A DNA stretch of 53,973 nucleotides from the NCBI GenBank assembly GCA_026417735.1, contig JAOACR010000016.1, positions 1 through 53,973 on the forward strand. The letters run 5' to 3'. The notes under the pieces were generated by a model that did not search any database, was not told where the DNA came from, and worked only from the letters and a program-made list of their open reading frames with translations. Positions 3,218-53,933 of the stretch are shown here, one piece after another. Origin of the DNA: Kiritimatiellia bacterium (lineage in GTDB: Bacteria > Verrucomicrobiota > Kiritimatiellia > PWTM01). The position numbers and the translations under genes were made by a program. How positions within the stretch are numbered: the first letter of the stretch is position 1; each line of letters starts with the position of its first letter.

Positions 3218-4724
3218 TCCGGCGCTTCGCCGCCAGCCACTTTAGCAGCGCGGAACGCGTATCTACTGCCGTGATCTCCAGCGCGGCTTCCGGCGCACTC
3301 GCCATTCGACGCACCCCCGGCCATCGTCCCCCTGCGGAAGCGATCGCGTGACTGTTCATTGCAACTCGAAATCGTCGCCGCGGATGCGGCAGGCTCCCGT
3401 CCGGAAGCTCGATCCGGACCACCCGGCGGCCCGCTTCCGCTGCCGGGTCGAGCCGCACCCGCAGACCGCTGATCCCGCTCACCGTACGGCCGGTCGTGCT
3501 TAACATCTCTTCCAGCGCCGCGCGGATCTCCGTCACCGTCCAACGGCAAATGCCGATCCGATTCTCGTACGGCACCACCCGCCACACGTCGCGCACGCGC
3601 ACGTCCCCTTCCGTCAGCTCTGCCTCCGACAAACGGCCGTGGATCACGACATCCGCGCCGACAGTCTCCATGATGACCTTCCGTAGTAGCCGCGCGATGT
3701 TTTCATCGCCGGGCGCCGTGGCTTCCGCCGACCATGGCGCCACCACCTGAGCGACGACGCGCTCCAGCCGATTCGATGCCCGCTGCACCACCGATCCGGT
3801 CAGAGCCACAAGGTCGGCATCCGGCTCCACCGTGGCGTCCACCGGCAGCAGCACGCCGCTCTTGCGCACCACACGCCGCTGCAGCGTGTCGTAGACGATG
3901 TCCACCCTCCCCACCCACTGGCCATGACAGCCAGCCTGGGCGTACAGCACCCCCCCCGCCAGCATCTGCTCCGCAATCGCCTCATGGGTATGCGCACCCA
4001 GAACCACATCGAAGTCAGGGTATCGGCCTGCCAGCGCGACCGCGCCCGGTGCCGGATCCTCCCGACCCGGCCGGAGACCTTCGTGAACCACCAGCACCAG
4101 CACTTCCGCGCCCGCCGATCTCAGCGCGGGCAGCGCATCTCCGATCGCATCCTGCGGCGCCCGAATCGCCAGCCCTTCCAGCCAGCCGGGCGGCTGCCAA
4201 CGCGGTGTGGTGGGATGCGTCGTTCCCACCACACCGACGCGCACGCCGCCGAGTTCACGGACGATCCACGACCTGATGCCCGGCAACGGCGGCGGCGCCC
4301 CGGGCGCCGGCCCGATGTTGGCCCCCAGCACCGCAATCGGCGACGCCTCAACCAGCGCGCGCAACGCCGGCAGCCCCCAATCGAACTCGTGGTTGCCGAG
4401 GACCCATGCGTCGCAGCCCGCGCGCGCCAGCGCATCCAGCATCAAGCGGCCACCCGTTTCCAGGCTCTCCAACGTGCCCTGGATGGTGTCACCGCAGTCC
4501 ACCCACAGCACGTTCGGTTCCCGCGCGCGAACCCGTCGGATCAGCGTCGCACAGCGCCACAGCCCCGCCTCGGACGCAACGCCGCCCTCCGGCACCAGGT
4601 TGACCAGCCGACCGTGGAGATCAGTAGTGTGCAGCAGCACAATCGGTACTTCGCGTGCGGCGCACGCGAAGGCCACTAGCAGTGCGACCGCCGTCGCCCA
4701 CCGGGGGACGCGTTCGCCCCTCAT
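3159..4724 (-). CDS. Secreted 5'-nucleotidase / 2',3'-cyclic phosphodiesterase family protein (UshA-like)
   Basis: Predicted periplasmic metallophosphoesterase that would strip phosphate from nucleotides. A signal peptide covers about residues 1-24. The metallophos domain shows [25 protein letters not shown] and GAHTHEA, which carry the dimetal ligands. A C-terminal 5'-nucleotidase domain (about 330-480) includes [11 protein letters not shown] and VVPYENRI. I chose the ATG at 4724 because it forms an ATGA overlap with the clpX stop; a GTG two codons earlier is in frame. It is the last gene of tig-clpP-clpX, an unusual partner for protein quality control, so the linkage may be only transcriptional. 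The 3' end overlaps the convergent kinase by 59 bases. Family is certain; substrate is not. Confidence 0.9.
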
Positions 4725-40871: not shown

Positions 40872-42731
<1,860 letters not shown>

Positions 42732-42759
42732 GACCGATGCTCCTTCCGTTCCGCGCCGC

Positions 42760-44487
42760 TCACCGCGCCGCGGTAAACTTCAGCGTCCGCACGTTCACCG
42801 GCCGCCAGCCCTCGGCCACCGCCCGTAGCTCCACCCGCGAACGCCCCGCCGGCAGCCGCACGTTCTCCACCTTCACCGTCGTGTACCGTCGATAGTCCCG
42901 GGTGTCCGGAACCGCGATCTCGTGGCGGTCCTCCCCCGCCACCAGCACCACCTTCGAAGCACCCACCGCGGCCGCTTCGAACTCCACCCGCCCTCGAAAC
43001 TCCGCCGGCAACTCCACCAGCCAGATTGCATGGTCGGCAGGGTCGGTCCAAAACCCGAGATTGCGCTGGAGACCCCTCCCTTCCGTCGCCAGCTTGCCAG
43101 TGGTCTCCGCCGCCTCCGGCGGTAGCATCAGCGTCCCATCCGCGGCCGGACGCCCCACCCACGGCACCGTCGCCACCTCACCACGCACCCGCAGCGCCAC
43201 CACCGACGCGATCGGGTTCGGCGCCGCCGCCGGCACCGCCAGCACCACGGTCGAGCCGTTTCGCTCCGCGGCCACCGCCCCGCCCCCGACCAGACGTGCG
43301 TCGATCACCTCGTTGGGCAGATCCTCGATCACCAGCCGACCGTCCGCCGGCCAGTCGAACACATGCAGATACAGCGTCGTCACCCCCTCCTTCACCTTTC
43401 GTGTGCATCGTCCCCACCGCAGGTTCCGGAATGGGCTCGCGATGGTGCCGTAGATCGCCTCGCCGTACTGGTCCATCCACGCGCCGACTTGTTCGAGACG
43501 CTCAACGCTCGGCGCCGGGATCTCTCCTTCCGCGGTCGGACCGACGTTCAGCAGGTAGTTGCCCCCCTTGCTCACAATGTCAATGAGGTTCCGTACCAGC
43601 GTCTCGGTGCTTTTCCAATTGTGATCGTAGCTCTTGTACCCCCACGTGTCGTTCATCGTCATGCAGACCTCCCAGTCGCGCCCCTTGAATCCGGTCGCGG
43701 GGATGTACTGCTCCGGCGTCTCGGTGTCCCCCTCGTACCCTCCGCCGAGCCGATCGTTCGTGATCAGGCCTGGCCGTAGTGCGATCAGCGCGTGCAGCGG
43801 TGCCGCCCGCTCGGCCGTCATCAAGTGCGGCGTGTCCCACCAGAGGATGTCCGGCTGAAACTTCGTCAGCACTTCGCGGGTCTGCGGCACCGCAATCTCC
43901 GCGAGGTAACGGTCGAAGCTCCCCTTGTGCGCCTCATCCCAACCGCCGCCGTCCGGATAGCCGGACTTCGCCCCGCCGGGATGAGTCCAGTCCTGCGCTT
44001 GCGAATAGTAGCAACCGAACTTCAGTCCGTGCCGGCGTGCCGCGGCGGCCAGCGGCGCCAACAAGTCCCGACCGTACGGCGTCGCGTCCACCACGTCCCA
44101 GTCCGTCACCGCGGAGTCGAACAGCGCGAAACCGTCGTGGTGCTTCGAGGTGATCACGATGTATCGCATCCCCGCCCGTTTCGCGAGGCGCACCCACGCC
44201 TCCGGATCATACTTCACCGGGTTGAACTGGCGGGCGAACGCCCGGTACTCCGCGACCGGAATCTTCGCGCGCAGCATGATCCACTCGCCGATGCCGGCAA
44301 TCTGCTGCCCGTTGTAGATGCCCGCCGGCACCGCGTACACCCCCCAGTGGATGAACATGCCACACTTCGCCTCGCGCCACCACGCCATCCGGGCGTCCCG
44401 CTGCTCCGGCGTCTCCGCCGCCCCACCCGCAATCCCCACCGCCGCCGCCAGCGCGGCCGCCGCCCATCCTTGAGTGCGCGTTCGCAT
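42760..44487 (-). CDS. Secreted alpha-L-fucosidase, GH29
   Basis: 575 residues from the ATG at 44487 with a strong GGAGGT 5 bases upstream. Signal peptide about 1-24. Catalytic GH29 domain about 25-370: [42 protein letters not shown], and the nucleophile Asp218 in [25 protein letters not shown] closes it. Beta-sandwich extensions (about 440-575) may bind sugar. It releases terminal L-fucose. The acid/base residue varies in GH29 and is not assigned. First gene of the fucosidase-fucI pair, divergent from the AraC gene across a shared operator. Confidence 0.95.
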
Positions 44488-44516
44488 CGGCCACCTCCGT
44501 TCGTTGAAACCCGCTG

Positions 44517-44583
44517 TTGACGATGCCACGCGCACCGCCCATTCACCATCGCCGGGGTTGACACGATGGTGTCATTTTTTGAC
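44517..44583. promoter_or_regulatory. AraC-type operator region between GH29 and the araC-like gene
   Basis: Three TTGAC boxes read in the same direction on the plus strand: 44517-44521, 44558-44562 and 44579-44583. The gaps are 41 and 21 bp, close to four and two helical turns, which is the spacing AraC-family proteins use. TGACAC-GATG-GTGTCA (44559-44574) is also a perfect 6+6 inverted repeat around the middle box. It lies between the divergent fucosidase and regulator starts. Confidence 0.5.
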
Positions 44584-44592
44584 CATCCCCCC

Positions 44593-45555
44593 ATGCGCGT
44601 GCGCGCGCCAGCCGCAGTCAGCGAGCCGCCCTACTTCAGCCACCAGGTCAGCGCCGCCCGGCGCTTCTACCTGCGCCTCGCCCCCCGCCACGGCGGGCCC
44701 CTCACCGTGATCAGCGGCGGCTGGGAGCTCTGCCGGCCAGACTACCGCGTCCGCCGCGCGGGCTTCCCGCATCCAACGCTCGAGTTCGTCGCGCGCGGGC
44801 GCGGTGAACTCTGGCTCGGCGGACGGCGCACCCCGTTGACGCCGGGGTCGGTCTTCGTCTACGGCCGCCGCACCCCCCACGACATCCGCTGCGATCCCGC
44901 CTCGCCAATGTTGAAATACTTCGTGGTGTTCGCCGGCGCCGCCGCGCGCGATCTGTTGCGCACCGGCCGCCTCACTCCCGGAACGGCGACCCGCGTCACC
45001 GAGCCCGACCGCATCCGCGAGCTCTTCGACGATCTCATCGCCCGCGCGCTCGACGACCGCCCCGGCCGCGAACGGCTCTGCGCCATCGCGCTGGCCTACC
45101 TCCTGACCCGCATCGCCACGCGGACCGCACCACAGACCCCGGACGCCGGCGCGCTGGCAGCCTACCACCGCTGTCGCGCGCTCATCGAAAGCCGACCCGC
45201 GGAGTTCCGGCGGCTGGCCGAACTGGCCGCCGCCGGCCATGTCAGCGTCGGACACCTCTGCCGCCTCTTCCGAAAGTTTGGTCGCCAGAGCCCGATGGCC
45301 TACCTCCGCCACCTGCGGATGAATCTCGCCGCACAGCGAATTCTCACCGGCCACGTGCCGATCAAGACCGTCGCCGTGGAATTCGGCTACGCCGACCCGC
45401 ACAACTTCACCCGCGCGTTCCGTCGCGCGTTCGGCGTCGCCCCAACCGACCTGCTGCGCGGCCCGGTTGCCCACACCCGGCCGGCTGGCCCTCTGCGCAG
45501 CTCCGCGGCCCACGCATTGACCCCGGCCCTGCCTGCTTCTACGTTTCGCACATGA
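44593..45555 (+). CDS. AraC-family transcriptional regulator
   Basis: 320 residues from the ATG at 44593 (44566 is an in-frame alternative that lies inside the operator). N-terminal cupin-like sensor (about 25-130; FVARGRGELWLGGRRTPLTPGSVFVYGRRTPHDI), C-terminal double helix-turn-helix (about 195-300) with AAGHVSVGHLCRLFRKFGRQSPMAYL and VAVEFGYADPHNFTRAFRRAFGVAP, the second AraC signature. It probably senses a sugar such as fucose and activates the divergent fucosidase-fucI genes. Its TGA overlaps the ATG of the following HAD gene. Confidence 0.92.
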   Translation: MRVRAPAAVSEPPYFSHQVSAARRFYLRLAPRHGGPLTVISGGWELCRPDYRVRRAGFPHPTLEFVARGRGELWLGGRRTPLTPGSVFVYGRRTPHDIRCDPASPMLKYFVVFAGAAARDLLRTGRLTPGTATRVTEPDRIRELFDDLIARALDDRPGRERLCAIALAYLLTRIATRTAPQTPDAGALAAYHRCRALIESRPAEFRRLAELAAAGHVSVGHLCRLFRKFGRQSPMAYLRHLRMNLAAQRILTGHVPIKTVAVEFGYADPHNFTRAFRRAFGVAPTDLLRGPVAHTRPAGPLRSSAAHALTPALPASTFRT

Positions 45556-46244
45556 CCCTCTCCGATCCTGTTCAGCGCCGCGTCGACGCGGTGCTCTTCG
45601 ACATGGACGGCGTGCTGTGCGATTCTGAGCCGTTCATCTGCGAAGCGGCCCGCCTCATGTTCCGCGAACGGTACGGCCTGGAGTTCTCCCCCGATGAGTT
45701 CCGTCCTTTTGTCGGCGCCGGCGAAGACCGCTATCTCGGCGGCCCGGCGGAACGCCGCGGTCTTCGCCTCAACCTGCCGGCCGACAAGGCCCGTACCTAC
45801 GAGATCTACCTCCAAATCATCCGCGGCCGCCTCGCCCCGCTGCCCGGCGCCGTCGAGTTCGTCCGCGCCGCCCGCACGCTCGGCCTGCGCACCGCGGTGG
45901 CCACCAGTGCCGACCGCATCAAGCTGGAAGGCAACCTCCGCGAAATCGGTCTCGCAGAGGGCGAGTTCGATGCGCGCATCACCGGCGACGACATTCGCAG
46001 GAAGAAACCGGACCCCGAAATATTTCTCGCCGCCGCCGCCGCGCTCCGTGTCGCCCCATCGCGTTGTCTTGTCGTGGAGGACGCGCCCAACGGTCTGCGC
46101 GCCGGTGTCGCGGCGGGCGCACGCTGTCTGGGCATCCTCTCCAGCTTTCCCGAGGCGGAGCTGCGCGCGGCCGGCGCCCGCTGGCTCGCGCGCGATCTCG
46201 CCGAGGCACTACCTCGCTTGCCACAGATGATTCGCGAGGACTGA
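45552..46244 (+). CDS. HAD-superfamily sugar phosphatase / beta-phosphoglucomutase-like
   Basis: 230 residues, ATGA overlap with the AraC gene. Motif I DMDGVLCDSEPF (both Asp), helical cap with FVGAGEDRYLGG, motif II Ser/Thr in VATSADRIKLEG, motif III Lys in RRKKPDPEIFL, and motif IV VVEDAPNGLRAG. This pattern (DGVxxDS, KPxPDxF and EDxxxGxxAG-like) is typical of subfamily IA mutases and phosphatases on hexose phosphates. Position next to the fucose regulator suggests sugar-phosphate metabolism, without proof of substrate. Confidence 0.87.
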   Translation: MTLSDPVQRRVDAVLFDMDGVLCDSEPFICEAARLMFRERYGLEFSPDEFRPFVGAGEDRYLGGPAERRGLRLNLPADKARTYEIYLQIIRGRLAPLPGAVEFVRAARTLGLRTAVATSADRIKLEGNLREIGLAEGEFDARITGDDIRRKKPDPEIFLAAAAALRVAPSRCLVVEDAPNGLRAGVAAGARCLGILSSFPEAELRAAGARWLARDLAEALPRLPQMIRED

Positions 46245-46283
46245 CTGTCCCTGCCCTCTCCTCGCACGCGCGACGGCATCACA

Positions 46284-46919
46284 TCAGCCGAAGGGAAACA
46301 ACACGAACACCGCCACATCCCACGCCGCGTGGCTGACCATGTTCGCCGCCAGCGACCGCCAGCGGTGATACATCCACCCCCACGCCAGACCCGCCACCGC
46401 CGCGGCTAGCAGCAACACGGGATTGCCGGTCGCCACATGGATACCCGTGTACAGCGCCACCGCCGCCGCGATACCGCGTCCCGCCCCCAGACGAGCCGTC
46501 AGCCCGCGCTGGACGACGCCCCGCCAGACGATTTCCTCCGCCGGACCAATCACCAATGCCAGCAACAACGCGATCCGCCACTTCGAGGCTCCCTCACCTA
46601 GCGCGTACACCCGCCCGATCATCCCCCCCGCCTCCGGCCATACCCGCCTCAGCAGTGCATTGCCGACCGCAAACACCGCGCCCAACACCAGCGCCGCCGC
46701 CAGCCCTCCCGCCAGCTTCAGGCCCATACGCGCCCGCAAATCCCGCCCCATCTCCCCACGAAGCTCCCTGTCGAGCAGCAGGCCCGCTACGGAAAGCAAC
46801 AAGCCGTTCGCGGCCATCCACCACCAGAAATCCAACGCGCCCACGCGGCGCCATGCGAACAGTGGCATCATCAGCACATAGGCGCCCGCGACGTACCCCC
46901 ACAGCCCGCGCGTGCTCAT
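46284..46919 (-). CDS. CPBP-family intramembrane metalloprotease (CAAX/bacteriocin-processing type)
   Basis: 211 residues with about six membrane segments. The conserved motifs are EEIVWRGVVQRGL (motif 1, EExxxR), YTGIHVATGNP (motif 2 His) and NMVSHAAWD (motif 3, HxxxN/D type). It may process lipid-modified peptides or membrane proteins; no substrate is visible nearby. It follows GH78 by 45 bases on the same strand; no clear promoter is seen in that gap, although a TTGACC lies there. Confidence 0.88.
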   Translation of the reverse strand: MSTRGLWGYVAGAYVLMMPLFAWRRVGALDFWWWMAANGLLLSVAGLLLDRELRGEMGRDLRARMGLKLAGGLAAALVLGAVFAVGNALLRRVWPEAGGMIGRVYALGEGASKWRIALLLALVIGPAEEIVWRGVVQRGLTARLGAGRGIAAAVALYTGIHVATGNPVLLLAAAVAGLAWGWMYHRWRSLAANMVSHAAWDVAVFVLFPFG

Positions 46920-46964
46920 CGCCCGTACTCTCGCTGAACGTGGTTCCCGCCGGTCAACTCCCGC

Positions 46965-49900
46965 TCAGCGGCGAACCGTAAACCGATACCGGCCGGACTC
47001 GACCTCCAGCACCACGCGATCGCCCACCTGCCGCGCAGCGCGCACACCCTCGGCTGCGGCCGCCGGCCCGCCGCCCTCCTCTCGAACCGACTCCACCGAC
47101 GCAGCCGGCACCCACAGTTCCGCGGTGACACCCGGCGGGATGCATACCTCCCAGACCAGCTCCCGACCACGGCTCGCCCATTCGCTCTCGATGCGCCCCG
47201 ATACCGCCCGATACACGGCCCGAACCCGCTCGCAGCCGGGCACCACCTCGGGACGCATCCGCAACCGCCGGAAACCCGACCGATCTGGCGCGTTCGCGAT
47301 GCCGGCGAGATTCTCAAACATCCAGATCACGAGATCGCCCAGCAACATCACGTGATTGTGCGAATTCATTGCCGGATCCGCGGTATCGCCATTCCACAGC
47401 TCCCAGATCGTCGTCGCCCCCCGCCGCACCATATACCCCCAGCTCGGATAGCTTTCGCGCGTCGCCAGCGTCCACGCGAGGTCGGCGCGGCCGAGATCGG
47501 TGAGCGTCCGCATCAGCCACTGCCCGCCGATCAGGCCGGTCATCACATGACCCCCTGCTTCGCGCTCGAGCTTGTCCACCAGCCGCCCAGCCACACGTCC
47601 TCGCTCCGCCTCGGGCACCAGCCCAAACCGTAACGGCAAAATGCAGGCGGTCGCCGTGCCATTGTCGTACCAGCCGTCCGCCGGCCGGAAAAACTCCCGG
47701 TGAAACGCCGCCGCCGTCTCGCGCGCCAGCCGCTCATACCGTGCCGCCTCTCCTCCGCGGCCGAGCAGCCGCGCAAACTCCGCGAGCATCTCGGCGCACT
47801 TCGCGAAGTATGCGGTTCCGATGAGCGGCCCGGCGGTCTTCCGCGCCAGATCTTTCGAGTGAATCAGCTTCGGGTCCTCCGGCGGAACGCACCAGTCGCC
47901 ATACGTGTCCCGCGGCTGAATGCCGTTGGTCACGAACGTCTGCATGTGCTCCATCCAGCGCACCATCGCCGGCCACGCCTCCGCGACCGTCACTCGGTCG
48001 TCGTAGTGGTCCAACAGCGCCCGCGGCACAAACAAAAGACTCGACGGCCACGTCATGTTGTCGGTGTAGATCGGCCAGTATGGCGGCGCGACGTTCGGCA
48101 CGCTGCCGTTGTCCCGCTGCGCGTCCACAATGTCTCGCGTCCACTTCGCGTAAAATGCGGCGAGGTCAAATAGGAACATCTCGCCGTGACACTCCGCGGA
48201 GCGGTCGCCCAGCCAGCCTTGGCGCTCATCGCGCTGGGGACAGTCCGTCGGAATGCTCCGGTAGTTGCCCCGAATGCCCCACACCGCGTTCGAGAAAATC
48301 TGGTTCAGCAGCGGATCGGAGCACGACCATTCGCCCACTCGCTCGACGTCGTCATGCACGACGCGCCCATCAATCATTTCCGCAGTCAGCTCGCCCGGCC
48401 ACCCCTCCACCTCAACGAACCGGAAACCGTGATACGTGAACCGCGGCTCCCACTCCTCGACCCCTTCCCCCCGCAGCACATAGCGATCGGTCACCTTCGC
48501 GCCGCGAATGTTGTCGAGGTACAGCTCGCCCTCCGCGTTCAGCGTCTCCGCGTGGCGCAGCGTCACCACCGTCCCGCGTGGCCCCCGGACCCGGATCCGA
48601 CACCAGCCGACCATGTTCTGCCCCATGTCCACGATCCAGCGTCCATCGGGCCGGCGCCGAATCTCGCGCGGCCGCAGCGTCTCCGTCACGCGGATCGGCG
48701 GCATCACCGCCCCCCACATCCGGCCCGCCGGTGCCCCGACCCGTTGCGCCGGCCACCAGCCGCTCTCATCGAAGCCGGCTGACGCCCAGCCCCGCATCTC
48801 GCGCCGGGCGTCGTAGTCCTCACCATCGTACTCGTTGTTCGCGAGAACTGGTCCGTTCGTCGTCATGCGCCACGAGGCGTCGCTCACAAGACGCTCGCGC
48901 CGTCCGTCCGTGAACTCCACCGCGAGGCAGAGTCGCAGCTTCGGCCAACCATAGGTCAGCGTCTCGGTCGGCTCGACCAGCCGCGGCGCATAGTAGCGTC
49001 CGTTGCCCAGGATCACCCCGATCGCATTTGATCCGGTCTGTAACGCCTCCGTCACATCACGGGTCACATACGGAACCCGCGCATCGTAGTGCGTGAGCGG
49101 CGGCCACAACACCTCGTCCCCGATCCGCCGCCCATTGATCCACAACTCACCGAGCCCCAGCGCCGAATAGTGGACCACCGCCCGCCGAATCTCGCCGGTG
49201 AGCGCAAACTCGCGCCGTAACCAGCGCGCCGGCTGTCGCCGGTCCGCCGGCAACGCGACCGCCCCCCACGGCGGGTCGCCCGGTCGGCCCACCGCTCGCA
49301 CCGGCATCCACCCCTCGACCAGCTCGAGCCGCTCCGGCCAACCCGGCGGCTCGTTGGTCGCACACCGCCACTCTGCGTCCGTCTCCATCGACCACGCCCG
49401 CCCCGACTCGTGCTCCACCTCGATCACCGCCAGCCACCCCGCCGGGTTCGGCCCCCCGCCCAGGTTCTCCACCCGCACCGCCAACACGTTCGTCCCGCCG
49501 TGCAGATGGCGCATCAAGTCAAATTCCCCCGACGCCTTGAACGAAGACACCCGCCCCACCCGCTCACCGTTGCAATAGATGTCGGCAAGGTTGTCTGCGG
49601 CCGCAAGCAGTCTCGCCCGCCGAACCGGATCGCCACCGTCCGGCACCACGACCACCCGGCGGAAATACCGCGCACCCGGCGGCTCCGGCCGCTCCGGCGT
49701 CCATATCCAGGAGCCACGCATCAGGAGCCCCGTCTCCGTCACACCGTCCAAGCCGATCCACTCCGCCCCCGCCCACTCGGAGGGATCCGTGATACCCATC
49801 GTCCACGAGGCGATCCCGCTCCATCCGGACGGCTGACCCTCACGGTCCCACACTCGCACCTTCCAGAACGCCGTTTCGCCGCTGCGCAGGGGCGTGCCCC

Positions 49901-50195
49901 CATAACGGATCTCCGTCCCCTCCTCCCATCGCTGCTGGCCGCTGTCCCACAGCTCACCGCGGTCTTCCGCCAATGCCGCCGCCGACCGCGCCACGAGTAC
50001 CTGCCACGCGGTGGGCCGGTCGCCGCGTCGCTCCGAACTCAGCCGCCAGCGCAATCGCGGCGCGGCTGTTTCCACGGCCGTCGGATTGACCAGGTGCTCG
50101 CAGCGCAAATCCTCTACACGAAGCGCCGCGCGAACAGACGGTGGAAACCACAACGAAGACGCCGCAAGAAACAGAATCCACATTTCTGGTCTCAT
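46965..50195 (-). CDS. Secreted alpha-L-rhamnosidase, GH78
   Basis: 1076 residues from the ATG at 50195 with GGAGG 5 bases upstream. Signal peptide about 1-22. Modular GH78: Bac_rhamnosid_N-type beta domain with RVEDLRCEHLVNP at the start (about 22-130), a carbohydrate-binding region (about 170-320), the catalytic (alpha/alpha)6 domain with the signature TDCPQRDERQGWLGD near 650 (acidic catalytic residues), and a C-terminal beta domain with GATTIWELWNGD and MNSHNHVMLLGD before it. It removes terminal L-rhamnose from plant or algal glycans. The in-frame extension to 50255 is rejected because the SD and signal peptide fit the 50195 start. Confidence 0.94.
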   Translation of the reverse strand: MRPEMWILFLAASSLWFPPSVRAALRVEDLRCEHLVNPTAVETAAPRLRWRLSSERRGDRPTAWQVLVARSAAALAEDRGELWDSGQQRWEEGTEIRYGGTPLRSGETAFWKVRVWDREGQPSGWSGIASWTMGITDPSEWAGAEWIGLDGVTETGLLMRGSWIWTPERPEPPGARYFRRVVVVPDGGDPVRRARLLAAADNLADIYCNGERVGRVSSFKASGEFDLMRHLHGGTNVLAVRVENLGGGPNPAGWLAVIEVEHESGRAWSMETDAEWRCATNEPPGWPERLELVEGWMPVRAVGRPGDPPWGAVALPADRRQPARWLRREFALTGEIRRAVVHYSALGLGELWINGRRIGDEVLWPPLTHYDARVPYVTRDVTEALQTGSNAIGVILGNGRYYAPRLVEPTETLTYGWPKLRLCLAVEFTDGRRERLVSDASWRMTTNGPVLANNEYDGEDYDARREMRGWASAGFDESGWWPAQRVGAPAGRMWGAVMPPIRVTETLRPREIRRRPDGRWIVDMGQNMVGWCRIRVRGPRGTVVTLRHAETLNAEGELYLDNIRGAKVTDRYVLRGEGVEEWEPRFTYHGFRFVEVEGWPGELTAEMIDGRVVHDDVERVGEWSCSDPLLNQIFSNAVWGIRGNYRSIPTDCPQRDERQGWLGDRSAECHGEMFLFDLAAFYAKWTRDIVDAQRDNGSVPNVAPPYWPIYTDNMTWPSSLLFVPRALLDHYDDRVTVAEAWPAMVRWMEHMQTFVTNGIQPRDTYGDWCVPPEDPKLIHSKDLARKTAGPLIGTAYFAKCAEMLAEFARLLGRGGEAARYERLARETAAAFHREFFRPADGWYDNGTATACILPLRFGLVPEAERGRVAGRLVDKLEREAGGHVMTGLIGGQWLMRTLTDLGRADLAWTLATRESYPSWGYMVRRGATTIWELWNGDTADPAMNSHNHVMLLGDLVIWMFENLAGIANAPDRSGFRRLRMRPEVVPGCERVRAVYRAVSGRIESEWASRGRELVWEVCIPPGVTAELWVPAASVESVREEGGGPAAAAEGVRAARQVGDRVVLEVESGRYRFTVRR

Positions 50196-50229
50196 CCGAG
50201 CCTCCCATTCGAGCCAGAGCCCATCCCTG

Positions 50230-50259
50230 AGGCTAGCCGTCCTCCGCCCCCGCATTCAA
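50230..50259 (-). promoter_or_regulatory. Candidate promoter of the GH78 gene
   Basis: Minus-strand TTGAAT (50254-50259), an 18-base spacer, then TAGCCT (50230-50235, 3 of 6). The predicted leader is about 28 bases and carries the GGAGG site. Modest match. Confidence 0.35.
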
Positions 50260-50279
50260 GACCGACCAAGGCCCCTCCA

Positions 50280-50641
50280 CCCGGCGTTGGAAGGGCCGGC
50301 TCCATGCGGACCGCCTCCCTGGAGGGCGCCGTTCCACCGGCGCCAATGGAGGGCCCGGTTCCACCCGGGCCATCGAGGATTCGATTTACGGACACCGTGG
50401 AAGGCGCCCCTCCAACGTGCATGGAGGGCGCGGTTCCACCCGCGCCGGCCCTGGAGGGCGCCGTTCCACCGGCGCCAATGGAGGGCCCGCTTCCACGCGG
50501 GCCGTGGGGGATTCGATTTGCGGACGCCGTGGAACGCGTCCCTCCAACGTGCATGGAGGGCGCCGTTCCACCGGCGCCGCTGGAGGGCCCGGTTCCACCC
50601 GGGCCTTTTGGGGATAGGTCGGCGCAGAACTCGACCCTCCA
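50280..50641. repeat. Hairpin repeat array A (about 10-11 units of 25 bp, both orientations)
   Basis: Each unit is TGGAG, a 7-base arm, TTCCAC as loop, and the arm's complement. Plus-strand units: 50320-50344, 50347-50371, 50422-50446, 50452-50476, 50479-50503, 50554-50578, 50581-50605. Minus-strand units: 50390-50414, 50522-50546, 50617-50641 (degenerate), and a decayed one at 50280-50304. Arms seen: GGCGCCG, GGCCCGG, GGCGCGG, GGCCCGC and (minus) GGACGCG, nearly all paired with their complement; in 50390-50414 the arms GGGCGCC and GGTGTCC pair with G-U wobble. The spacer GATTCGATTT precedes each internal minus unit, and ACGTGCA joins minus to plus units. Non-coding: the proline-rich frames that read through it are artefacts of the repeats. 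Confidence 0.9.
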
Positions 50642-50766
50642 GAGGCGGCTACGATGGCGGCACCAACCTTCACCTGCGCCGCAACACGACCTACTCGCGC
50701 GCTCAGCGCAACGCGTGCACAATATCATCCGCAGGCCGCGTGGGCCGCAAACCTGAAGGAGGAAGT

Positions 50767-53103
50767 ATGAACAGCCTCTCCGACCTTAGATCTGTTCTAC
50801 GTCGGATCCCTGTCCTCGCCCTCGCGCTCATGCCGGACCTCGCCAACGCCCAAACAATCCTCTGGCAGACCAGCGCAGTGCCAGACCGCGTCTGGTCACG
50901 CGAACACGCCGCCGCCACCCTTCATCGCGAAGCCGACGCGGTCCGCATCACCCACCGCGGCGAAAAAGACTGGGCACTCCGGCCGGAGATCGCCATCCCT
51001 CCCATGAACGGCATCGCCGAAGTCGCAGTTCCGATCCGTGGAGACGGCCGGGGCGAGATCACCGTTGCATTCGCCCGAAAAACAGAGGATGACCGTGTGC
51101 TCGAATGGACCCACCGCGCACGTACCCTTCGCCCCCCCACCACGACCATCGTGCTTCGGACCCGCGCCCGACTGCCCGTCGCCGGCGAGCGCCTTCACGC
51201 TCGGGTGCTCGGCACCGGCCCTGGGGAATTTGTCGTTGGCCCAATCACCGCCACCGTCGTCGCCCCGCCACCAATGGCCAGCGGGCAGCCCCTTACGATC
51301 AGCAACCGCGTGATCGCGGCCCGACTCGATCCCCGCGATGCAACCCTCGCTCTCACCGACCTGCGTACCGCCCGCTCCTGGCTGCCCGCCCGTCCCTCCT
51401 CGCCATGGCAGGCGCTCAGAGTGCGCGCGGCTCGCGACCGCCTGGAGTGGACGCTTTCCGACGAATTTGGCGAGGCCAGTTGGGATGCCCGCCTCACGCT
51501 CGAACCTGACCTCGCCGAAGCGGTGCTGCTGCTCACGCCCCGCCACGGTACCAATGCGCCAATGCGAGAGCCCCTGGCCTATCCGCCGCCCCTCGCCGCA
51601 GACCCGCCCGAATCCGCCGAACTCATCCTTCCCCTGAACGAGGGCATCGGCTTCCCCGTCGGCGATGCCGCCGTGCCGACCATGCGCCTCATCGCGTATG
51701 GCGGCCACGGCATCTGCATGGCGTTCGCCGGACTCGTCGCCGGCGACACCGCCTTCATGATGCTCATCGAAACGCCCGACGACGCCGCGATACGGCTCGA
51801 CCGCCGCGAGGGCCGGCTCGTGCTGGCGCCCGAGTGGGACCCCCAGCGCGAGACGGCCGGCTACGCCCGAAGGCTCCGGTTCGTCCTGTTCGACCGGGGC
51901 GGCTACGTCGCAATGTGCCGGCGCTATCGCGAGCACGCCCGCGTCGAGGGTCGGCTCGTCACCTTCCGCGAAAAGCTCGCGCGCAATCCCGACGTCGAGC
52001 GCCTCGCGGGCGCCGCGAACGTCTGGTTCATGGACCGGGGCGGCGGGCTGGACCTCGCCCGTGAGATGGCCGCCGCCGGCATGGACCGCGTGCTGTGGAG
52101 CGCCGGCCGAACCTCAAACGAAGTCGCCGCACTCCGCCAGATGGGCTGGCTGATCAGCCGCTACGACATCTACCAGGACCTGATGAATCCTGCGGAGTTC
52201 CACCGACTTCATCACGTGCCGCGCGACTGGCCCAACGACGCCTGGCCCACCGGCGTGATCCGGCGCGCCGATGGCGACTGGGTCCGCGGCTGGCAGGTGC
52301 GCACCAAGGACGGCAGCATGATCCCCTGCGCGGTGCTCTGCGATCGCCTCGCCCCCGACCGCGCCCGACAGCGAATTCGTGAAGAGCTCGCCGCCCGCCC
52401 CTACAACACGCGCTTCATTGACACCACCACGGCGACACCCTGGCGGGAGTGTTACGACCCCGCCCATCCAATGAGTCGGACGGAAAGCCGGATGTACAAG
52501 ATGGAACTGCTGAAGGTCGTTTCCCATGAATTCAATCTCATCTGCGGCTCCGAAACCGGACACGACGCGGCAGTTCCGTTTGTGCACTACTTCGAGGGCA
52601 TGTTGAGCCTCGGTCCGTTCCGAGTTCCCGACGCCGGGCGGGACATGGAACGCAAGTGGGACGAGGTACCCGAGCGGGTCGCGCGTTTCCAGACCGGTCA
52701 CCGCTACCGGCTGCCGCTGTGGGAACTGGTCTACCACGACTGCGTCGTCGCGCAGTGGTACTGGGGCGATTACAACAACAAGCTGCCCGCGCTCTGGCGG
52801 CGGCGCGACCTGTGGAACGCGCTCTACGGCACTCCACCCATGTACATGTTCAACCGCGCAGAGTGGGCACGCGACCGCGAACGGTTCGTGGAAAGCTACC
52901 GGATCGCGACGCCGGTTCACCGCCGGACGATGTTTCATCCGATGATCTCGCACCGGCGGCTGACGCCGGACGGCTCGGTGCAACAGAGTGAGTTCGGCGA
53001 TGGGACGGTGGTGACGGTGAATTTCGGCGAAACACCGTATCGTCTGCCCGGCGGCCGGGAACTGGCGCCCGAAACCGCCATCTGGACCGCTCAGGCCCCC
53101 TGA
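50767..53103 (+). CDS. Secreted glycoside-hydrolase-like protein of unassigned family
   Basis: 778 residues from the ATG at 50767, which has GGAGGA 3 bases upstream; the frame is open before that through the repeats, which is rejected. Signal peptide about 1-28. An N-terminal beta domain (about 30-380) is followed by a TIM-barrel-like part (about 420-700) with FIDTTTATPWRECYDP, LICGSETGHDAAVPFVHYFEG, LPLWELVYHDCVVAQWYWGDYNN and ALYGTPPMYMFNRAEW. The layout and the Asp/Glu-rich strand ends recall GH101/GH129-type alpha-N-acetylgalactosaminidases, but I cannot confirm this. Flanked on both sides by the hairpin arrays, with no other gene between. Confidence 0.75.
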   Translation: MNSLSDLRSVLRRIPVLALALMPDLANAQTILWQTSAVPDRVWSREHAAATLHREADAVRITHRGEKDWALRPEIAIPPMNGIAEVAVPIRGDGRGEITVAFARKTEDDRVLEWTHRARTLRPPTTTIVLRTRARLPVAGERLHARVLGTGPGEFVVGPITATVVAPPPMASGQPLTISNRVIAARLDPRDATLALTDLRTARSWLPARPSSPWQALRVRAARDRLEWTLSDEFGEASWDARLTLEPDLAEAVLLLTPRHGTNAPMREPLAYPPPLAADPPESAELILPLNEGIGFPVGDAAVPTMRLIAYGGHGICMAFAGLVAGDTAFMMLIETPDDAAIRLDRREGRLVLAPEWDPQRETAGYARRLRFVLFDRGGYVAMCRRYREHARVEGRLVTFREKLARNPDVERLAGAANVWFMDRGGGLDLAREMAAAGMDRVLWSAGRTSNEVAALRQMGWLISRYDIYQDLMNPAEFHRLHHVPRDWPNDAWPTGVIRRADGDWVRGWQVRTKDGSMIPCAVLCDRLAPDRARQRIREELAARPYNTRFIDTTTATPWRECYDPAHPMSRTESRMYKMELLKVVSHEFNLICGSETGHDAAVPFVHYFEGMLSLGPFRVPDAGRDMERKWDEVPERVARFQTGHRYRLPLWELVYHDCVVAQWYWGDYNNKLPALWRRRDLWNALYGTPPMYMFNRAEWARDRERFVESYRIATPVHRRTMFHPMISHRRLTPDGSVQQSEFGDGTVVTVNFGETPYRLPGGRELAPETAIWTAQAP

Positions 53104-53115
53104 TGCCCCCCTCCC

Positions 53116-53779
53116 TGGAGGGCGCCGTTCCACCGGCGCCACGGATTTGGGTCGGGGTGGAACCCGACCCTCCAGATGCGCGGGACCTGGAGGGCCCGGT
53201 TCCACCCGGGCCATTGGGGATTCGATTCGCGGACGCCGTGGAAGGCGTCCCTCCAACCTGCATGGAGGGCCCGGTTCCACCCGCGCCGTCGCCGATTCGA
53301 TTCCCAACCGCCCTGGAGGGCGCCGTTCCACCGGCGCCAATGGAGGGCCGGTTCCACCCGCGCCGTCGTGAATTTGATTCGCGGACGCCGTGGAAGGCGT
53401 CCCTCCAACGTGCATGGAGGGCGCGGTTCCACCCGCGCCGTCGCCGATTCGATTGCCAACCGCCCTGGACGGCGCCGTTCCACCGGCGCCGATTTCAATT
53501 CCCGTGGAGGGCCCGGTTCCACCCGGGCCGTCGGGGATTCGATTTGCGGACGCCGTGGAAGGCGTCCCTCCAACCTGCATGGAGGGCGCCGTTCCACCGG
53601 CGCCAATGGAGGGCCCGGTTCCACCCGGGCCGTCGGGGATTCGATTCCCAACCGCCCTGGAGGGCGCCGTTCCACCGGCGCCAATGGAGGGCCCGGTTCC
53701 ACCCGGGCCGATGTGGATTTGATTTTCGGCCGACGTGGAAGTCGGCCCTCCAATGGTCGGGGTGGAACCCGACCCTCCA
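53116..53779. repeat. Hairpin repeat array B (18 units of 24-25 bp, both orientations)
   Basis: Same unit as array A. Plus units: 53116-53140, 53188-53212, 53263-53287, 53314-53338, 53341-53364 (24 bp), 53415-53439, 53466-53490 (TGGAC), 53505-53529, 53580-53604, 53607-53631, 53658-53682, 53685-53709. Minus units: 53150-53174, 53231-53255, 53383-53407, 53548-53572, 53728-53752, 53755-53779. New arms are GGTCGGG with CCCGACC and GGCCGAC with GTCGGCC. In 53263-53287 the arms are GGCCCGG and CCGCGCC, one mismatch, as if two unit types had recombined. Spacers of the form GATTCGATT plus TTGC or CCCAACCGCCC recur. The array begins 13 bases after the hydrolase stop. Confidence 0.9.
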
Positions 53780-53795
53780 GGAATTTGATCATTCA

Positions 53796-53933
53796 TCACA
53801 CGCTGCGGGCTTTTTCGAGGCGGGCGCGGACAAGGGTGATGACCGCCTCATGGACCGCCTCCCGCTCGCCCTGGGTCAACCCCAACACCTCAAACACGAC
53901 ATCGTCCAACGCCCGACGGTCGGGCTGGATCAT
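53796..53933 (-). CDS. C-terminal segment of a DNA methyltransferase, or a short separate ORF
   Basis: 45 codons: MIQPDRRALDDVVFEVLGL, then TQGEREAVHEAVITLVRARLEKARSV. From memory this matches the end of N-6 adenine DNA methylase/Eco57I-type proteins (PDRRxLDxxVFxxLGLTxxERxxVYxAVxxLVxxRLxKAxSV). Here it starts with an ATG that overlaps by 4 bases the TGA of an upstream frame. Either a frameshift has split one methyltransferase gene, or a coupled short ORF has evolved. The rest of the gene lies to the right of the window. Confidence 0.5.
   Translation of the reverse strand: MIQPDRRALDDVVFEVLGLTQGEREAVHEAVITLVRARLEKARSV

Follow-up and report, generated by a model that had tools for sequence, protein, structure and literature searches.

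Compensated 25-bp hairpins tagged with GGAG in a Kiritimatiellia genome are very probably a class of repetitive extragenic palindromes

A 53,973-nt stretch of contig JAOACR010000016.1 of a Kiritimatiellia bacterium (assembly GCA_026417735.1; positions 1 to 53,973, hereafter the window) carries two arrays of 25-bp hairpin units of the form TGGAG-[7]-TTCCAC-[7], in which the two 7-nt arms vary together. These units are very probably repetitive extragenic palindromic (REP) elements of a REP-associated tyrosine transposase (RAYT) system, arrayed like bacterial interspersed mosaic elements (BIMEs) or REPINs, with the tag GGAG at the hairpin foot instead of GTAG or GTGG. We assign them to REP/BIME elements with a non-canonical tag because they flank or interrupt a RAYT gene in relatives, and because RAYTs accompanied by GGAG and by GTAG hairpins separate on a phylogenetic tree. 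Few tiny mobile DNAs of bacteria are as widespread as REP elements with their RAYTs, whose hairpins are commonly sought by GTAG or GTGG tags; a GGAG class would explain repeats missed by such searches in a large, little-studied part of the Planctomycetes-Verrucomicrobia-Chlamydiae (PVC) group. Our literature search, which covered the main texts of open papers, found no description of a GGAG REP class.

The link to a transposase was found on a unit-rich contig (L206), where a RAYT reading frame with the HuH motif MPDHIH and a Y motif is preceded by one unit and contains four more, all in frame. After removal of the inserted units, the protein matched the family model NF047646 (REP-associated tyrosine transposase) at 5.6e-24 and 84.7 bits (cut-off 80), stayed below the cut-off of the IS200 model NF033573 (27.6 bits, cut-off 55), and matched PDB entry 4er8, the E. 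coli TnpA-REP, at 2.3e-7. Used as a query, it found Y1/RAYT matches in 71 of the 97 genomes of the class. Four of these genomes (G003, G023, G051, G012) hold units both outside the RAYT gene and inside it, at nearly the same place (query residues ~84-101); G003, which belongs to the genus of the window, has a RAYT read-through open reading frame (ORF) of 1396 aa across the units. In seven others (G046, G060, G019, G014, G064, G068, G086), units flank the RAYT gene. Of the 24 RAYTs in this clade, 12 had strict units beside them, compared with none of the 27 Y1 loci outside it (Fisher p = 1.7e-5; a caveat is that these counts ignore the relatedness of the genomes). When hairpins with a GGAG foot, a stem of 7-12 bp, and a loop of 3-6 nt were also accepted, most of the RAYT clade was covered. 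The original prediction, which was made from the letters of the window, had suggested looking for an associated RAYT; such a gene, an NF047646 member flanked or interrupted by units, occurs in relatives, and none was detected in the window genome.

Judged from a Pfam Y1_Tnp search and 19 sampled Y1 loci, the units had seemed to lack a transposase link. That conclusion was mistaken: the L206 RAYT gets a weak score from Pfam (26.4 bits, joined halves), and the sampled Y1 genes belonged mostly to other groups. Clustering of the proteins near units gave no common partner gene, the largest cluster being present at 7 of 199 loci.

A maximum-likelihood tree placed 23 RAYTs in one clade (support 95/88) whose labelled members are all flanked by GGAG hairpins, and GTAG-flanked RAYTs in a second clade, so that the GGAG/GTAG label needs a single change on the tree; this labelling included only four GTAG rows, two of them (L347 and L356) labelled by hand, and left the mixed locus L327 unlabelled. 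In E. coli TnpA-REP, the residues of the guide-contact segment are W94, Q95, E100, H101, and R104 (PMC6006769). At positions 100-102, the GGAG clade has D100-T/R101-Q102 where E. coli has E100-H101-A102, and the GTAG RAYTs in our set mostly have D100-H101. Judging from this alignment, residues 100-102 may set the tag preference. The Y motif of the GGAG RAYTs is YVxxNP.

On this basis we propose, with moderate confidence, that a deep RAYT clade switched its guide specificity from GTAG to GGAG along with changes in segment 100-102 (E-H-A to D-T/R-Q), and spread its hairpins through Kiritimatiellota, Verrucomicrobiota, Lentisphaerota, Sumerlaeota and beyond, with REP arrays also inside its own reading frame. 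Single-strand DNA transposases would then have a second guide code in nature. Since two guide tags are paired with two enzyme sequence motifs, this guide-recognition code could be tested by residue swaps.

The window contains 28 units on both strands, nine in 50320-50605 and 19 in 53116-53779, as the original prediction had estimated, and its seven listed arm types are exactly those present. Its statement that the second arm complements the first in nearly every unit also held, with a perfect 7-bp Watson-Crick stem in 24 of the 28; the imperfect units are 50390-50414, 50522-50546, 53263-53287, and 53341-53364. However, the loop that it described as invariant is so only locally, and varies across the 166 distinct units of the family. 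The arrays and their units are as follows.
50277-50641, unstranded: array 1, a BIME-like cluster of nine good units and one decayed unit between divergent genes
50320-50344, plus: unit, arm GGCGCCG
50347-50371, plus: unit, arm GGCCCGG
50390-50414, minus: unit, arms GGGCGCC/GGTGTCC, one G-T
50422-50446, plus: unit, arm GGCGCGG
50452-50476, plus: unit, arm GGCGCCG
50479-50503, plus: unit, arm GGCCCGC
50522-50546, minus: unit, arms GGACGCG/GGCGTCC, one mismatch
50554-50578, plus: unit, arm GGCGCCG
50581-50605, plus: unit, arm GGCCCGG
50617-50641, minus: decayed unit TGGAGGGTCGAGTTCTGCGCCGACC
53107-53781, unstranded: array 2, a BIME-like cluster of 19 units from the 3' end of the GH129-like gene to the 3' end of a small ORF
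53116-53140, plus: unit, arm GGCGCCG
53150-53174, minus: unit, arm GGTCGGG
53188-53212, plus: unit, arm GGCCCGG
53231-53255, minus: unit, arm GGACGCC
53263-53287, plus: unit, arms GGCCCGG/CCGCGCC, one mismatch, hybrid of two types
53314-53338, plus: unit, arm GGCGCCG
53341-53364, plus: unit, first arm with a 1-nt deletion
53383-53407, minus: unit, arm GGACGCC
53415-53439, plus: unit, arm GGCGCGG
53466-53490, plus: unit, tag TGGAC, arm GGCGCCG
53505-53529, plus: unit, arm GGCCCGG
53548-53572, minus: unit, arm GGACGCC
53580-53604, plus: unit, arm GGCGCCG
53607-53631, plus: unit, arm GGCCCGG
53658-53682, plus: unit, arm GGCGCCG
53685-53709, plus: unit, arm GGCCCGG
53728-53752, minus: unit, arm GGCCGAC
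53755-53779, minus: unit, arm GGTCGGG

The arrays are mosaics in which a plus unit, a linker of ~17-18 nt with GATTCGATT, a minus unit, a linker of ~7 nt, and a further plus unit follow one another repeatedly, with higher-order periods of 75, 132, and 152 bp. These periods and the linkers that array copies have in common are what passive tandem repetition would produce, that is, simple duplication without a transposase, with the hairpin form as a by-product of base composition. Such an origin is extremely improbable, as it is contradicted by the dispersal of single and paired copies over many sites, common to several families and phyla, and by covariation with a bimodal distribution of pairing.

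In a search that fixed tag and loop but put no condition on the stem, all seven Watson-Crick pairs formed at 127 of 219 sites and six of seven at 40, separate from a chance peak at two to three pairs, and 31 distinct perfect arms were found. In a mutual-information ranking computed without structure, all five variable stem pairs came out on top among the 166 distinct units, a set collected by requiring a stem. When tag and loop were left free, the hairpin foot carried TGGAG in 184 cases, GGGAG in 16, and CGGAG in 14. The six-base "loop" takes two forms. In one, a pair between bases 1 and 5 (T:A, C:G, or G:C) closes a TCC triloop and base 6 bulges out; in the other, bases 1 and 6 pair around a TCCY-type tetraloop. 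A Watson-Crick apical pair with base 5 or 6 was present in 161 of the 166 units compared with 84 ± 6 in shuffles (maximum 108); the shuffles ignore relatedness and the loop classes are few, yet three different pairs and two topologies agree. The occurrence of TGGAG with a bare TCC triloop on hairpins of a sister RAYT (L346) also supports apical pairing. Thermodynamic folding confirmed the 7-bp stem, and the 8-bp stem of the tetraloop types; by itself it did not predict the apical pair of the triloop form. A unit is thus a 5' NGGAG, a 7-bp stem variable except for the basal GG:CC, an apical eighth pair, and either a TCC triloop with a 3' bulge or a TCCY-type tetraloop.

The original prediction had also suggested that the tail UGGA could pair with UCCA in the loop, allowing a pseudoknot or kissing of neighbouring units. 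In a general form (NGGA with TCCN'), such pairing could be considered as the functional core. Tag base 1 and loop base 5 were complementary in 94 cases compared with 77 ± 4 in shuffles (relatedness ignored), and T:A, C:G, and G:C classes of tag and loop exist. However, the internal apical pair gives a stronger signal than this weak association, CTCCTG and CTCCCG loops combined with C or T tags are exceptions to it, and the GGAG hairpins of sister RAYTs have GCC, CCC, or GTC apices that do not complement GGA. We therefore regard tag-loop pairing as a highly improbable functional core and do not retain it as a general feature.

The units are not confined to the two arrays; had they been, this would by its own terms have refuted the original prediction. 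The exact pattern matched 41 times on nine contigs of the 3.09-Mb window genome, where the reversed pattern, used as a control, matched nowhere; allowing two mismatches added about half a dozen recognisable decayed units. The pattern is present in 21 of the 97 genomes of the class. In addition, a scan of named contigs found true hairpins in records of Kiritimatiellae, Verrucomicrobia including Pelagicoccus, Lentisphaerae, Sumerlaeia, Thermogutta, Halopseudomonas pertucinogena, one deltaproteobacterial bin, and one Anaerolineales bin; the taxa are those of record titles, and some metagenome-assembled genomes may be misbinned. Copy numbers outside the window are lower bounds, as are those of a covariance model run over the 97 genomes with strict filters and the best 80 candidates, for which reason pattern counts are preferred here. 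Unit clusters were intergenic in 97 of 139 cases compared with 33 of 139 random points, and neighbouring units were oppositely oriented in 85 of 115 pairs.

If selection acted on one RNA strand, G-U pairs would be expected to be favoured as intermediates of stem change. Among the 189 distinct 25-mers, 76 had a single non-Watson-Crick stem pair: G-T in 22, A-C in 19, and other, transversion-type pairs in 35. Because G-U is not in excess over A-C, the mismatches give no sign of RNA-level selection. The original prediction had read the paired changes as selection on a folded RNA or DNA; the changes are real and keep the hairpin, as seen in the mutual information and the duplicates of array 1, whereas selection on RNA is not borne out. 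A folded DNA hairpin fits the compensation better. This calls for caution with covariation methods, since strong compensatory covariation (here lacking wobble bias) can come from DNA hairpins and not from RNA.

A structured RNA under selection on the folded transcript, such as an attenuator, a stabiliser of mRNA 3' ends, or a small RNA, is for these reasons very unlikely. The predicted RNA hairpins are stable (-10 to -14 kcal/mol) and many units lie between genes, as this explanation would have it. However, the window has no Rfam match at gathering thresholds, the units occur in both orientations and in divergent and convergent contexts, and they are linked to a transposase of single-stranded DNA. 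By analogy with a proposal for other REPs, the units may secondarily affect mRNA stability.

The compensation could also arise in part by mutation rather than selection, through template switching between the arms of the quasi-palindrome during replication, which copies a change from one arm to the other and is a documented mechanism (PMC8794818). We consider this a tentative explanation, less probable than not as a full account, which can act alongside the assignment to REP elements. It agrees with compensation at the DNA level without a G-U intermediate bias and with the frequency of single-mismatch units. In array 1, two neighbouring and recent 132-bp duplicates resemble each other except for paired changes on the two arms of units, which may reflect template switching (PMC8794818), exchange of units, or selection. 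However, template switching leaves the dispersal, the conserved tag and apex, and the RAYT link unexplained, and inversion of the loop relative to the tag, one of its possible outcomes, was seen in none of about 340 units.

As REP elements, the units may work by analogy with the E. coli TnpA-REP system. Where DNA becomes single-stranded, as on the lagging-strand template, a unit would fold, and a RAYT of the WDTQ-motif clade would recognise the hairpin shape and the GGAG tag at its foot. The enzyme would cut and join the strand, making the units mobile and spreading them in pairs, and local arrays would then enlarge by tandem duplication and unequal exchange. The arms would be free to change if both sides match, because in this proposal recognition reads shape, tag, and apex and not the arm sequence. 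The window genome presumably has, or once had, such a RAYT.

Several results weigh against this assignment. Neither Pfam Y1_Tnp nor the L206 RAYT query had a match in the window genome, which is 96.8% complete, and the L206 query had none in three further genomes that hold units (G001, G032, G066). The units of these three would be orphans, or their RAYTs would lie in assembly gaps. The RAYT of the window genome may have been lost, or it may be unassembled within units, because five contigs of this genome end near units. A test of orthologous loci turned up paralogues, or orthologues whose neighbourhoods differ, and no clean empty site. The tag is GGAG and not the GT[AG]G of the published REP criterion. 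Furthermore, L327 has both GTAG and GGAG hairpins, and GGAG-tagged hairpins with TCC or TTCC apices occur near Y1 genes outside the WDTQ-motif clade (L151 in G089 and L270 in G071), which may be further REP families.

The five contig ends (C7, C8, C16, C23, and C24, of 24 contigs) are each about 200 bp or less from a unit. Assembly was thus probably interrupted by the repeats, with the result that copies are undercounted.

Compared with known systems, the units are closest to REP/BIME/REPIN elements and their RAYTs (TnpA-REP; subclasses 2.2-2.8, PMC6006769; GTAG families, PMC3733652). Both are 20-40-bp palindromes with an unpaired 5' foot tag, alternative complementary stem bases, and a bulged or short apex, which form inverted dimers and clusters, lie mainly between genes, and flank a dedicated RAYT. 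In-frame REP insertions between the HuH and Y motifs are likewise known for RAYT subclass 2.4 (PMC6006769). A REP stem has at least 7 bp with a short loop, or a bulge with an apical stem; here it has 7 bp with the apical pair, bulge, and triloop, or 8 bp with a tetraloop. The units differ in the GGAG tag and in the conserved TCC apex with the adjoining bulge, and their RAYTs differ from E. coli TnpA-REP at residues 100-102. The view that fixed REP stems set the units apart does not stand, as REP families with alternative complementary stems are known (PMC3733652) and a cognate RAYT exists. Elements without GT[AG]G have also been described for subclass 2.6 and class 3 (PMC6006769), and the GTAG-20 elements of O. 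terrae, which have a GTGG tag (PMC3733652), are candidates for comparison.

CGTC-tagged REPs (PMC3733652) are likewise tagged palindromes in inverted dimers, with heterogeneous 8-9-bp stems and 4-5-nt loops; however, their first two stem pairs are AT and no transposase is known for them, whereas a RAYT accompanies the GGAG units. In Planctomycetes and Acidobacteria, class 3 TnpA-Y1 elements (PMC6006769) are similar in that a Y1 enzyme lies near atypical hairpins whose foot tetranucleotide is not GTAG, but their foot is CnGA and their Y motif Y----Q, compared with GGAG and YVxxNP here. At the ends of IS200/IS605, too, a Y1 HUH enzyme reads the 5' guide tetranucleotide of a hairpin; unlike these ends, the GGAG units enclose no insertion sequence and are dispersed singly, in pairs, and in arrays.

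Related hairpins were seen in several places. A sister 25-mer, GGGAGGGCGAGCGTCC[TC]CGCGAGCC, occurs in G066, G013, G014, and the flanks of L328; its stem is not perfect but contains a fixed tandem G-A mismatch (GGCGAGC/GCGAGCC), and it probably represents a further REP type with the GGAG tag. GTAG-tagged hairpins close to some RAYTs or units bear the same apices as GGAG units (CTCCGT, CTCTGT; L156:3144 and 3212, L351:486-811), which suggests that tags or apices have been exchanged between REP families. The gammaproteobacterial isolate Halopseudomonas pertucinogena has an array of 78-bp period (L161:2423-2733) with the same tag and a TTCCAC/TTCCAT apex, whose basal pair differs from that of other units (TGTCGAG stem).

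In the window, array 1 lies between a divergent alpha-L-rhamnosidase gene (minus strand) and a GH129-like gene (plus strand), and array 2 lies 3' of the latter, facing the 3' end of a small minus-strand ORF. Positions 40872-53103 hold a carbohydrate cluster with L-fucose isomerase, alpha-L-fucosidase, alpha-L-rhamnosidase, and the GH129-like protein (Pfam). The small ORF adjoins array 2.
53794-53931, minus (approximate ends): small ORF MIQPDRRALDDVVFEVLGLTQGEREAVHEAVITLVRARLEKARSV (LDDVVFEVLGLTQGEREAVHEAVITLVRARLEKARSV)
Sequence resembling this ORF also adjoins the RAYT in L206 (~3900-3940 and 4645) and, by eye, in G003 (L337, ~2258-2340). By association, the small ORF is possibly a recurrent partner or a hot spot of insertion.

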